Shown here piece by piece: positions 17,497 to 21,821 of a stretch of DNA of 64,000 bases. Position numbers and translations under genes: made by a program. A model generated the notes under the pieces. The model was given only the letters and a program-made list of their open reading frames with translations. It searched no databases and was not told the DNA's origin. Position 1 is the first letter of the stretch. The number at the start of each line of letters is the position of its first letter. The DNA comes from Algoriphagus resistens (GTDB lineage: Bacteria; Bacteroidota; Bacteroidia; Cytophagales; Cyclobacteriaceae). The stretch covers positions 1 through 64,000 of the forward strand of contig NZ_LMXN01000009.1 of NCBI RefSeq assembly GCF_001442615.1. Direction: 5' to 3'.

Positions 17497-18780
17497 TTAT
17501 TTTATATTGTGCTGTTCTAACATCAATTTATCAATTAATCTGCCTTGTGGAATTTCTACATCGTTATATGTAATAACCGTATCCTTTGGAACAGCTTTTT
17601 TCATGCTGCAGCCTTCTGCTATTCCCATAGTCAATAGATTTTCCTTAACAACAACTGAATGGTTTTCACAGAGTCCGTATGATTTGAATCCTCCGATTCC
17701 ATCTAGGCTGTCACCTGGAAAAAGATCTGTTTTGGCTGTAGCTACCACATCTACAAGCGATGGACCTAAGGGCACGATCACAGGATCATCAAAATCTATT
17801 AATCTTGAAATAGAACTTGCAATATCAAAAAACAGCAGATGATAGGGTTGGTAAAAACTGTATAGGGGTCCTTCTCCTAATTTCCCATACTTTAGATATT
17901 TGATAGCGTAGGGATCATTGGTTGTGGCATATACAAATACTCCGGGTCCGGGTTTTGCCCCTACAATATACTCTACAATTCCGCCCCATTCTCTGAGTTG
18001 ATCCACATCATATAAATGGGTCAGGTTGTCTACATGGTCTGTGGATTCATAGCCATACATGCCTCTTTTTGATACGCGCATTCCTGTCGCATTTGCAATA
18101 CAGGATTGTTCGAATGCCACTTTGGTACCATCTGCGAAGTTGGTTGCCATTTCGGGAAGCATTCCCCAAGAATCCGCAAAACCTTTTTGGGTGGCAGGGG
18201 TACGGTAATAATCCAACATCCCTTTGATATTTCCACAGACCAAGGGCTCAAAACCCATTCCCTTTACATACCTGTAGAGGTTCATAGTCACTCCGGGCTG
18301 ATCTCCGTCTCCCAGCGCATACTTTACACCGGCTTGTTTTGCTTTGCGATATAAAATCGGACCTAGGGTAGAGTCCAGCTCTGCATTAAAAGATAGTACA
18401 TGCTTACCCTTTTCAAAGGCTTTAAGGATGGTCTCTGCTCCAAAGTCAATTGCTCCTGTGGATTCCACAACAACCTCTACGTCACCCAAACTTAAAAAAA
18501 GATCCATATCTCCGGTGATGACGGATTTTCCTTTGGAAATTGCCAGATTGGCCTGTTCCAAATTGTCTGTAAGCAGGTAGTTGTCAATTTTCAGATCCTT
18601 ATATACTTCCACCACCCGCTCCGGGGTGCGGTTAAAAGTGGCAGCTACAGTCATCCCAGGGGTATGGTTCATAATTTGGTTTATCATACCCTTGGCCATC
18701 TCACCAGAACCTATCATCCCGACTTTGAGAATTTTCCCTTCTTTTTCCCTCTTTTTGAGTGATGTGTCAACGATTATCAT
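17497..18780 (-). CDS. NAD(P)-dependent oxidoreductase with Rossmann N-terminus and SAF-like C-terminus
   Basis: In the 427-residue product, the N-terminal nucleotide-binding fold has 'VGMIGSGEMAKGMI' (GxGxxx type) and homoserine-dehydrogenase-like features such as 'VVVESTGAIDFGAETIL'. The last about 70 residues ('NLLTMGIAEGCSMKKAVPKDTVITYNDVEIPQG' region) resemble a SAF domain. Proteins of this architecture recur beside RfbF/RfbG-type genes in nucleotide-sugar loci, where a role in tailoring a keto-sugar is plausible but, to my knowledge, not settled. Its start overlaps the 3' end of the upstream epimerase by 4 bp (ATGA), supporting work in the same pathway. The substrate is unknown. Confidence 0.7.
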   Translation of the reverse strand: MIIVDTSLKKREKEGKILKVGMIGSGEMAKGMINQIMNHTPGMTVAATFNRTPERVVEVYKDLKIDNYLLTDNLEQANLAISKGKSVITGDMDLFLSLGDVEVVVESTGAIDFGAETILKAFEKGKHVLSFNAELDSTLGPILYRKAKQAGVKYALGDGDQPGVTMNLYRYVKGMGFEPLVCGNIKGMLDYYRTPATQKGFADSWGMLPEMATNFADGTKVAFEQSCIANATGMRVSKRGMYGYESTDHVDNLTHLYDVDQLREWGGIVEYIVGAKPGPGVFVYATTNDPYAIKYLKYGKLGEGPLYSFYQPYHLLFFDIASSISRLIDFDDPVIVPLGPSLVDVVATAKTDLFPGDSLDGIGGFKSYGLCENHSVVVKENLLTMGIAEGCSMKKAVPKDTVITYNDVEIPQGRLIDKLMLEQHNIK

Positions 18781-19331
18781 ATTGTTTCCTGGTAGCTAAA
18801 AGGTGAGTTAAATGAACTAAATTCTATGAGGTTTTTGTCCTTTTTAGAAACGATCGGATCTTTGGTTGGCCAGTCAATTCCGCAGCTGTCCCATCTGATT
18901 CCCATATCATGCTCTTGGCTGTACATGGTGGAGGTTTGGTTTAAAAAGATTGATTTTTCTGACAGGGAATAAAATCCATGGGCACATCCTTCAGGAATAT
19001 ACAGCATATTGGCCTTATCGGGGTTGAGTTCAATGATGATATGCTCCCCATAGGTCGGTGATCCTATGCGAAGATCCACCACTGCATCCAATATGCTCCC
19101 TTCCAGGCAAAGAACGACTTTGATATGATGCTGGGACGGCACCTGGAAGTGTAGCCCCCTGATCACGTTCTTTTTAGAGACTGAATAGTAAACCTCAGGA
19201 AAGTCTTTATGAAGTCCCAATTCCTGAAAAGTTTTTTCATGAAAGGTTTTTACCAATTTGCCCCGGTCGTCTTTTCGCACCTTATGCTGGATTTCAAAAC
19301 ATCCAGGGATTTTAGTTTCTGTTAAATTCAT
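18777..19331 (-). CDS. RmlC-type sugar-nucleotide 3,5-epimerase family protein
   Basis: The 184-residue cupin protein has the family landmarks 'IRGLHFQVP' (active-site His), 'AVVDLRIGSPTYGEH', 'MLYIPEGCAHGFYSL' and 'GIRWDSCGIDWP'. RmlC enzymes epimerise C3 and/or C5 of 4-keto-6-deoxyhexose nucleotides. Because the neighbouring genes make CDP-4-keto-6-deoxyglucose, the likely substrate is a CDP sugar rather than dTDP. The Tyr position is kept here as 'TMYSQ'. A second homologue is adjacent, so the two probably act on different carbons or at different steps. Confidence 0.82.
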   Translation of the reverse strand: MNLTETKIPGCFEIQHKVRKDDRGKLVKTFHEKTFQELGLHKDFPEVYYSVSKKNVIRGLHFQVPSQHHIKVVLCLEGSILDAVVDLRIGSPTYGEHIIIELNPDKANMLYIPEGCAHGFYSLSEKSIFLNQTSTMYSQEHDMGIRWDSCGIDWPTKDPIVSKKDKNLIEFSSFNSPFSYQETI

Positions 19332-19340
19332 ACTGGTCTA

Positions 19341-19890: not shown

Positions 19891-21021
19891 TTAAAGGGTT
19901 AAAAATTGTTTTTCCTGTGCCCATCTAATGTTCTTATCGGATGCTTTTTGCTCATAAGAAAAAATCTGATTTTTAGTAAACTCAATTATATCTCCCTGAT
20001 TATGGTAGTACATATAATACCAGTCTCCGGTAAAGCGGATCAGCTCATCTATAGTAAGAGTGGGTTGCCATTTAAAATCATACAGCGCTTTATCACAGTT
20101 TAATTTGAGCAAACCTGCCTCAGAAAATTTAAGTTCTCCTGTTTGCGTGTAGATGTCCTGGGAGTTTTTCAGTCCCCAGCTTTCCCCAAGTTTTTGGAGG
20201 AGCTCCATTACGGTAATATTATTTTCAGAAGGAGGACCGAAATTATAGCTCTCCCCATTAAACTCACCACCGTTCCATAGCTCGGCAGCAACAGCGAGGT
20301 ATCCGCTTAAAGGCTCCAGAACATGTTGCCAGGGCCTGGTGGCACCAGGATTCCGGATTTCAACTTTTTGCTGATTACTCCAGGACCGTACACAATCCGG
20401 AACAATCCTGTCGGCAGCCCAATCCCCTCCTCCAATGACGTTGCCGGCTCTGACAGAGGCCAGCTTAATATTTGGCATTTTCTTGATAAAAGAATGGTAA
20501 TAAGAATGGATGATTATTTCAGCTGCCGCTTTTGACCCACTATAAATATCTTTTCCGCCTAGCATATCGGTTTCCTTGTATCCCCAGACCCATTCCACAT
20601 TTTCATAACATTTATCCGAGGTAATGCAAATGACCACACATTTATTTTCGAGATCGCGCACAGCCTCCAGGACATTGGCCGTGCCTATGGCATTTGTTGT
20701 GAATGTCTCTAAAGGATCCTGATAAGATAAAGAAACGATAGGCTGAGCAGCCATATGAAAAATAAAATCAGGTTCTATTCTTCTTATTTCGGATTTCAAA
20801 GAAGTTAAATCTCTGATATCAAGTAAAATATGCTCCATTTCCTTTTCGAGACCAAGGGACTCAAACAAGGAGGGGTGGGTGGGAATGTCTTTTGAGATGC
20901 CATATAATTTCGCGCCCTTCTGGTTAAGCCAAAGTGATAACCATGACCCTTTGAAGCCGGTGTGGCCTGTTATTAAAATTTTCTTACCTGAAAATACTGC
21001 TAATGAATTTGTGTCTGACAT
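19891..21021 (-). CDS. rfbG: CDP-glucose 4,6-dehydratase
   Basis: In the 376-residue extended SDR, the NAD-binding motif is 'ITGHTGFKGSWLSLW' near residue 17, typical of RfbG. The catalytic Y-x3-K is 'YSGSK', and 'ASVRAGNVIGGGDWA' and 'ATRPWQHVLEPLSGYL' are RfbG hallmarks. It converts CDP-glucose to CDP-4-keto-6-deoxyglucose. It follows rfbF by 17 bp, so the two steps are coupled. The downstream genes decide which CDP-6-deoxyhexose results. Confidence 0.93.
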   Translation of the reverse strand: MSDTNSLAVFSGKKILITGHTGFKGSWLSLWLNQKGAKLYGISKDIPTHPSLFESLGLEKEMEHILLDIRDLTSLKSEIRRIEPDFIFHMAAQPIVSLSYQDPLETFTTNAIGTANVLEAVRDLENKCVVICITSDKCYENVEWVWGYKETDMLGGKDIYSGSKAAAEIIIHSYYHSFIKKMPNIKLASVRAGNVIGGGDWAADRIVPDCVRSWSNQQKVEIRNPGATRPWQHVLEPLSGYLAVAAELWNGGEFNGESYNFGPPSENNITVMELLQKLGESWGLKNSQDIYTQTGELKFSEAGLLKLNCDKALYDFKWQPTLTIDELIRFTGDWYYMYYHNQGDIIEFTKNQIFSYEQKASDKNIRWAQEKQFLTL

Positions 21022-21038
21022 GTTATTAAATAGTTAAC

Positions 21039-21821
21039 TTACCAAGTTTTCCAAGGGGCGGAACCGTTATTCCAAAATTCTTCCAGTAGATTTTTATCCC
21101 GAAGAGTATCCATTGGCTGCCAAAATCCATCATGTCTGAAAGCGGCCAGTTTATCGGTTTTGGCCAATTCTTCTAAGGGCTCTTTTTCCCATACAGTCTG
21201 ATCATCAGTAATGAAATCCAGCGCTTTGGGCTCAACTACGAAGAAACCACCATTAATCCATGCGTTGTTTGTCCCATCTCCCTTAGGCTTTTCCCGGAAA
21301 TTAGTGATCTTGGTGTCTCCCGAGTCAAGTGTAAAGGCGCCAAATCTTCCGGGTTGCTGTACTGCAGTCAGCGTTACTATAGCATTTTGATCCCTATGGA
21401 AATCAATGGTTTTTTTGATGTCAATGTCACTCACTCCATCACCATAAGTAAGGCAAAAAGTCTCATCTTTTATATAGTCTGCAACCCGTTTGATCCGACC
21501 TCCTGTCATGACATTTTCACCTGTGTCGATTAACGTCACCTTCCAGGGCTCCGATTTTCTGTGGTGTACTTCCATTTGATTGTTTTGAAGATCAAAAGTG
21601 ATGTCGGTAGTATGCAGAAAATAATTTGAAAAATATTCCTTTATCATGTGTCCCTTGTATCCACAGCATATGACAAAATCGTTGATCCCATGAGAGGAAT
21701 AGATTTTCATAATGTGCCACAGGATGGGTTTTCCACCTATTTCGACCATGGGTTTTGGCCTAACACCACTTTCTTCGCTAATTCGGGTTCCAAAACCTCC
21801 GGCTAGAATTACTGCTTTCAT
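21039..21821 (-). CDS. rfbF: Glucose-1-phosphate cytidylyltransferase
   Basis: The 260-residue nucleotidyltransferase begins 'MKAVILAGGFGTRISEES', has 'PKPMVEIGGKPILWHIM' and ends with 'HDGFWQPMDTLRDK', all characteristic of RfbF. It makes CDP-glucose from CTP and glucose-1-phosphate and commits carbon to the CDP-sugar branch. It is encoded directly before rfbG. Confidence 0.94.
   Translation of the reverse strand: MKAVILAGGFGTRISEESGVRPKPMVEIGGKPILWHIMKIYSSHGINDFVICCGYKGHMIKEYFSNYFLHTTDITFDLQNNQMEVHHRKSEPWKVTLIDTGENVMTGGRIKRVADYIKDETFCLTYGDGVSDIDIKKTIDFHRDQNAIVTLTAVQQPGRFGAFTLDSGDTKITNFREKPKGDGTNNAWINGGFFVVEPKALDFITDDQTVWEKEPLEELAKTDKLAAFRHDGFWQPMDTLRDKNLLEEFWNNGSAPWKTW

Follow-up and report, generated by a model that had tools for sequence, protein, structure and literature searches.

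A CDP-sugar module of Algoriphagus resistens with a DXR-II-like oxidoreductase that may contract the sugar ring

The window studied here is a stretch of 64,000 nucleotides from Algoriphagus resistens (contig NZ_LMXN01000009.1, positions 1 to 64,000). Five open reading frames, whose positions were confirmed, form a tight run on its minus strand. The run starts with rfbF (21039..21821), a glucose-1-phosphate cytidylyltransferase gene (TIGR02623, 450 bits, cut-off 300.25). It is followed by rfbG (19891..21021), for a CDP-glucose 4,6-dehydratase (TIGR02622, 479.2 bits, cut-off 278.45) with cytidine diphosphate (CDP)-4-keto-6-deoxyglucose as its product. Then come two RmlC-family epimerases, epimerase 1 (19341..19880, 158.5 bits) and epimerase 2 (18777..19331, 159.9 bits), both above the TIGR01221 cut-off of 155.75. 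The last gene (17497..18780) encodes a DXR-II-like oxidoreductase of the DLO1 residue type, proposed below to be a CDP-4-ketosugar reductoisomerase, with a C4-reductase as the rival function. Its start overlaps the stop of epimerase 2 in an ATGA that can be read directly on the minus strand (18777..18780). A previous, sequence-only reading of this DNA had described the CDP-4-keto-6-deoxyglucose genes, the two RmlC-like proteins and this overlap, and all three descriptions stand. The close relative Algoriphagus sp. AGSA1 has the same gene set, with a 94% identical oxidoreductase.

RfbF and RfbG are also the first two enzymes of CDP-3,6-dideoxyhexose pathways. The sequence-only reading had noted that RfbH (E1) is lacking here, and a search for an rfbH homologue across the genome (6.13 Mb, 99.93% complete) agrees: nothing exceeds the cut-off, the best match scoring 130.9 bits against 423. 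There are ten DegT matches in this genome, and the five strongest, scored with NCBIfam, all fit models of other aminotransferases better than the RfbH model. Where those pathways have RfbH, this module has two RmlC-type epimerases and the DXR-II-like enzyme instead. The best RmlD match in the genome, at 202.9 bits, is below the cut-off of 224.05 and lies on a different contig from the module.

The oxidoreductase had been described as a SAF-domain protein. The Pfam SAF model gives no match to it at E 0.001, although PF08666 SAF is present in some of its close relatives. The informative domain is DRL_cat (PF21135), which scores 169.8 bits against a gathering cut-off of 27. This makes the enzyme a member of the DRL/DXR-II superfamily. 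It has the full-length three-domain fold of the Brucella abortus DXR-II/DRL enzyme (3upl/3upy), as found with 3upy. The genome has one DRL_cat gene only, and the family is absent from all 14 control genomes.

Active-site geometry was read solely from sequence columns. DXR-II Lys191, Thr229 and His250, whose conservation and roles are given in PMC3847144, are replaced in the window enzyme by N184, V221 and Y242, so by its residues it is not a DXR-II proper. It does fit the published description of DLO1, which is Leu, Ile or Val at 229 with a hydrophobic residue at 250 (PMC3847144). Published DLO1 members include proteins of Cyclobacterium, Deinococcus and Nostoc sp. PCC 7120. There the name DLO1 carries no function; we propose a substrate class and a residue signature to go with it.

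Among 167 distinct proteins, three residue classes are seen at positions 191, 193, 229 and 250 (Brucella numbering). DXR-II-type proteins have Lys, Lys, Thr and His. DLO2-type proteins have Lys, Thr, Ser and a variable residue. The group linked to CDP-sugar genes has Asn, Lys, mostly Ile or Val, and a variable residue. Arg at position 193 of the window enzyme is specific to this last group, which is called NKR below after its Asn/Lys/Arg signature. In all three groups nearly every member has identical residues at D217, K220, E224, N230, H314, E134, N132 and D160 (window enzyme numbering). The exceptions are single proteins at loci L056, L057, L161 and L237, and the distant, long-branched L246 and L247, which diverge more. 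The three anchors for fosmidomycin in DXR-II are K191, K193 and T229 (PMC3847144). In the NKR group two of these three are changed while K193 and the common core are kept, from which we infer that the substrate has changed and the reaction has not been lost.

The two epimerases are not alike. Epimerase 1 retains His62, Lys72, Tyr132 and Asp169 of E. coli RmlC, which is the complete catalytic set (His63, Lys73, Tyr133 and Asp170 in the S. enterica numbering of PMC7949155). Counting duplicates, all 86 of 86 rows of this type at the fetched loci keep the set. In epimerase 2 the set is incomplete: its type retains His, Lys and Asp, but the Tyr132 column holds Asn, as in the window protein, in 13 of 17 rows, Cys in one, Ser in one and Tyr in two. 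The nearest solved structure to epimerase 2 is 5buv (E 3.5e-46). Related Campylobacter enzymes lost some or all of their activity when the catalytic Tyr was mutated (PMC7949155), so epimerase 2 may work slowly, act specifically at a single centre, or have an altered role.

The sequence-only reading had also seen a possible Tyr to Phe change in one epimerase. The change is real and is in epimerase 1, but at the Tyr138 column, where Phe is common to 3 of the 86 rows; the catalytic Tyr is kept there and lost in epimerase 2. Judging by its column, Tyr138 is probably a nucleotide contact: the Tyr six residues after the catalytic one corresponds by spacing to Y140, which contacts thymidine diphosphate (TDP) in PMC9095892. 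With both tyrosines mapped onto E. coli RmlC, the idea that the change to Phe inactivates epimerase 1 was rejected.

The surroundings of related enzymes were surveyed in plasmid records, in the best 80 of at least 582 confirmed genome-contig stretches, a set biased to close relatives, and in further genome-sample stretches. The Bacteroidota loci are 16 of 22 places outside the own genome in one search and 4 of 5 in another; five places of one genus were left out, as were a place that scored below the cut-off and another whose contig was short. Cyanobacteria contribute 20 stretches, or 21 of 36 places. Twenty Pseudomonadota loci were hand-picked as likely relatives and controls. After removal of 4 duplicates from 148 loci, 144 remain: 119 of NKR type, the window included, and 25 others. 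Some loci are shortened by contig ends. A neighbour was called wherever in the stretch the best BLASTP match to a single reference protein exceeded 100 bits, or for the FAD enzyme mentioned below reached at least 45% identity.

An RmlC-family gene is present at 114 of the 119 NKR loci, and in 113 of these 114 the nearest one is on the same strand as the oxidoreductase. At 98 loci there is a cytidylyltransferase with 50% or more identity to RfbF of the window, and 5 more loci have a weaker one. A 4-ketosugar generator is found at 108, and generator, epimerase and cytidylyltransferase occur together at 94. This leaves 11 NKR loci without a found generator and 5 without a found epimerase. None of the three kinds of gene is found at the 25 other loci, of which 18 are hand-picked Pseudomonadota. 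No reading frame at the NKR-type loci has E. coli RmlD as its best match above 100 bits. Outside the best-80 set, the plasmids and the window, all 33 distinct NKR loci have at least one module gene (15 Bacteroidota, 16 cyanobacterial, 2 Pseudomonadota).

Some loci are unusual in other ways. The DXR-II-like gene is present in two tandem copies per cluster in L071 (7342-8616 and 9001-10293) and L224 (starts at 7762 and 9073). In the NKR-type loci L141, L143, L144, L225 and L229 the RfbF-like nucleotidyltransferase is a distant one only (32-36% identity), possibly for a different nucleotide carrier. DXR-II-signature genes on a Shinella plasmid (L019 4689-12130) and a Priestia plasmid (L017 1-11221) lie by sugar-binding regulators and pyruvate-dehydrogenase-like E1/E2/E3 genes. 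These gene sets are perhaps for catabolism of a branched polyol by a reversed DXR-II.

The generator comes in three kinds. RfbG, as in the window, is found at 23 loci. At 68 loci it is a protein here called SDRx, with 6vo6 as its best solved relative (78.9 bits), which we take to be the Campylobacter C4-dehydrogenase Cj1427. At 17 loci the generator most resembles UDP-glucuronate decarboxylase (158 bits) and is in each case accompanied by a nucleotide-sugar 6-dehydrogenase. The inputs would be a CDP-4-keto-6-deoxyhexose, a CDP-4-ketohexose and a CDP-4-ketopentose respectively. The bound NADH of Cj1427 is reoxidised by alpha-ketoglutarate, giving L-2-hydroxyglutarate (PMC10680097). An FAD enzyme is present in 55 of the 68 SDRx stretches, none of the 23 with RfbG and 2 of the 17 with the decarboxylase-like generator; its Deinococcus member matches L-2-hydroxyglutarate oxidase with 588 bits, against a cut-off of 299. 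The pairing is seen for example in L034 (1424-3682), L013 (9154-11456) and 53 other SDRx loci. By regenerating alpha-ketoglutarate from the by-product, the FAD enzyme could provide a built-in recycling.

A quick IQ-TREE of 99 rows, with SH-aLRT support and a midpoint root for drawing, places all 74 NKR rows in one group (SH-aLRT 98) with no foreign row within. The window enzyme groups with cyanobacterial, alphaproteobacterial and Deinococcus proteins. For each kind of generator, well-supported branches carry at least 8 changes of label, a count to which rows lacking a found generator contribute. Since the epimerase and the DXR-II-like enzyme are the constant partners, the enzyme would act on what the inputs have in common: the C2 and C3 hydroxyls, the C4 ketone and CDP.

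A unit of two hydroxyls and a ketone is the kind that DXR handles, by retro-aldol and aldol steps and then reduction (PMC8551875). Applied to the sugar, this chemistry would turn C3 into a hydroxymethyl branch on a furanose. Family, fold, residue classes, gene surroundings and the exchange of generators are observations; the substrate and each reaction step we infer as follows. RfbF and RfbG would supply CDP-4-keto-6-deoxyglucose, and one or both RmlC-type proteins would epimerise it next to the C4 ketone. The DXR-II-like enzyme would then cleave C2-C3 near the ketone by retro-aldol reaction, as DXR-type enzymes do with deoxyxylulose phosphate. Re-aldol reaction would join C2 to C4 and expel C3 as an aldehyde, which NAD(P)H would reduce to the hydroxymethyl branch. 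The resulting dihydrostreptose-type sugar would be a CDP-5-deoxy-3-C-(hydroxymethyl)pentofuranose. The inputs of the other two generators would by the same step give a dihydrohydroxystreptose-type sugar from CDP-4-ketohexose and an apiose-type sugar from CDP-4-ketopentose. All three are known natural types of sugar. That the module makes such a CDP-activated branched furanose for a surface polysaccharide, its ring contracted by the DXR-II-like enzyme, is held here with moderate confidence.

The streptose and dihydrohydroxystreptose (DHHS) pathways offer a parallel. They too have a 4-ketosugar, an RmlC-type epimerase and a reductive, ring-contracting step. PMC9095892 describes the rearranging activity as still to be assigned, favouring an RmlD paralogue for the ring contraction, and the activity that produces the 6-hydroxylated 4-keto substrate of DHHS as not identified. 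The carrier there is TDP, whereas here it is CDP, and the cluster here has no RmlD-like protein. The published DLO1 table includes S. griseus and C. burnetii (PMC3847144). For Coxiella, the DHHS region is given as cbu0825-0856 in PMC5843353 and as that region plus cbu1831-1838 in PMC9095892; PMC3539893 does not settle this.

Two observations weigh against ring contraction. Streptose and DHHS are each called unique to one bacterium (PMC9095892), which is a poor fit with the wide spread predicted here. In addition, the epimerase of the pentose variant can work on C3 alone, and ring contraction would abolish that centre.

That second point favours the main rival, in which the DXR-II-like enzyme simply reduces the C4 ketone: C3 epimerisation then has a purpose. 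The C3 and/or C5 epimer would be reduced to a CDP-6-deoxyhexose, possibly an L-sugar, roughly as the sequence-only reading had it. An L-configured product is possible under ring contraction as well. The gene logic is that of the Campylobacter heptose pathway (Cj1427, Cj1430, Cj1428; PMC10680097), with C4 oxidation, an RmlC-type epimerase and a terminal NAD(P)H enzyme, but there the terminal C4-reductase is of the short-chain dehydrogenase/reductase (SDR) class and the carrier is GDP. The fold is common to simple reductases, and with no RmlD called at the NKR-type loci another reductase is needed. Plain reduction does not explain why an enzyme with a DXR-II core recurs in the place of an RmlD-like reductase (other SDR reductases were not searched one by one), and it makes no use of the DLO1 entries for two bacteria with ring-contracted sugars. 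It is a serious possibility, somewhat short of probable. Because the oxidoreductase belongs to the DXR-II/DRL family, ring contraction with reduction is at least as likely. Of the earlier model, the unusual CDP-sugar and the oxidoreductase as the likely last enzyme survive; the family membership had been missed, and plain C4 reduction is no longer preferred.

It is unlikely that an RmlC-type protein, perhaps epimerase 2, rearranges the ring and leaves the DXR-II-like enzyme only an aldehyde to reduce. In its favour, 15 of the 17 epimerase 2 rows lack the catalytic Tyr but retain His, Lys and Asp, and PMC9095892 leaves open a rearranging epimerase. But StrM and CBU1838 gave no rearrangement in the same paper, and the RfbG and SDRx variants mostly have epimerase rows of type 1, with the catalytic Tyr.

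A second deoxyxylulose phosphate reductoisomerase for isoprenoids, merely adjoining sugar genes, would fit the family and fold, but it is very improbable and was rejected: the genome encodes its own IspC (PF02670, 148 bits), the enzyme lacks two of the three DXR-II anchors, His250 is replaced too, and the RfbF and RmlC context recurs. A 3,6-dideoxyhexose made with an RfbH encoded elsewhere was likewise rejected as hardly credible, since despite RfbF and RfbG there is no RfbH over the cut-off, the five strongest of the ten DegT proteins fit other models better and two C3/C5-type epimerases would be superfluous.

The ring-contracting reading may extend beyond the window. In Anabaena PCC 7120 the heterocyst envelope polysaccharide (HEP) depends on an island with alr2825-alr2831 (PMC4390870). 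The cytidylyltransferase gene there is alr2825; alr2827 is a putative epimerase/dehydratase gene, alr2830 is rfbC, and alr2831 probably encodes an NAD(P)-dependent oxidoreductase. This gene set fits the SDRx-type layout seen in Nostoc and Anabaena genomes. Going by accession numbers, alr2831 is likely the Nostoc PCC 7120 DLO1 entry of PMC3847144, and the HEP phenotype may be linked to an SDRx-type module. A tentative generalisation is that the whole NKR group are nucleoside diphosphate (NDP)-4-ketosugar reductoisomerases. Across Bacteroidota, Cyanobacteria, Alphaproteobacteria, Deinococcus and others, the HEP island included, they would work with three interchangeable generators towards CDP-activated branched furanoses of the apiose, dihydrostreptose and dihydrohydroxystreptose types. 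Their DLO1 relatives would supply the ring contraction for which streptose and DHHS synthesis still lack an enzyme. No literature tying DXR-II-like enzymes to nucleotide sugars was found, in a search with subscription papers mostly outside its coverage, so that absence is not proven.

An uncharacterised enzyme subfamily in this way gains a concrete substrate class, and the enzyme that contracts the ring in streptose-type sugars becomes testable. The data suggest that bacteria may use a reductoisomerase-family enzyme, of a kind known mainly for rearranging a carbon skeleton on the way to isoprenoids, to shrink and branch sugar rings. If true, this would extend isoprenoid-type reductoisomerase chemistry into nucleotide-sugar synthesis, explain part of the HEP island's sugar genes and give a rule for forecasting branched sugars from gene clusters.

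The window has further genes of some interest. Directly upstream of rfbF, 21835-22368 (Glyco_tran_28_C) and 22388-22870 (Alg14-like) form a possible split glycosyltransferase pair. A 310-residue protein at 26988-27920, to which no Pfam or NCBIfam model matches at E 0.001, adjoins a Gfo/Idh/MocA oxidoreductase at 27922-28938. A pair resembling these two sits by polysaccharide genes in L021 and L024.

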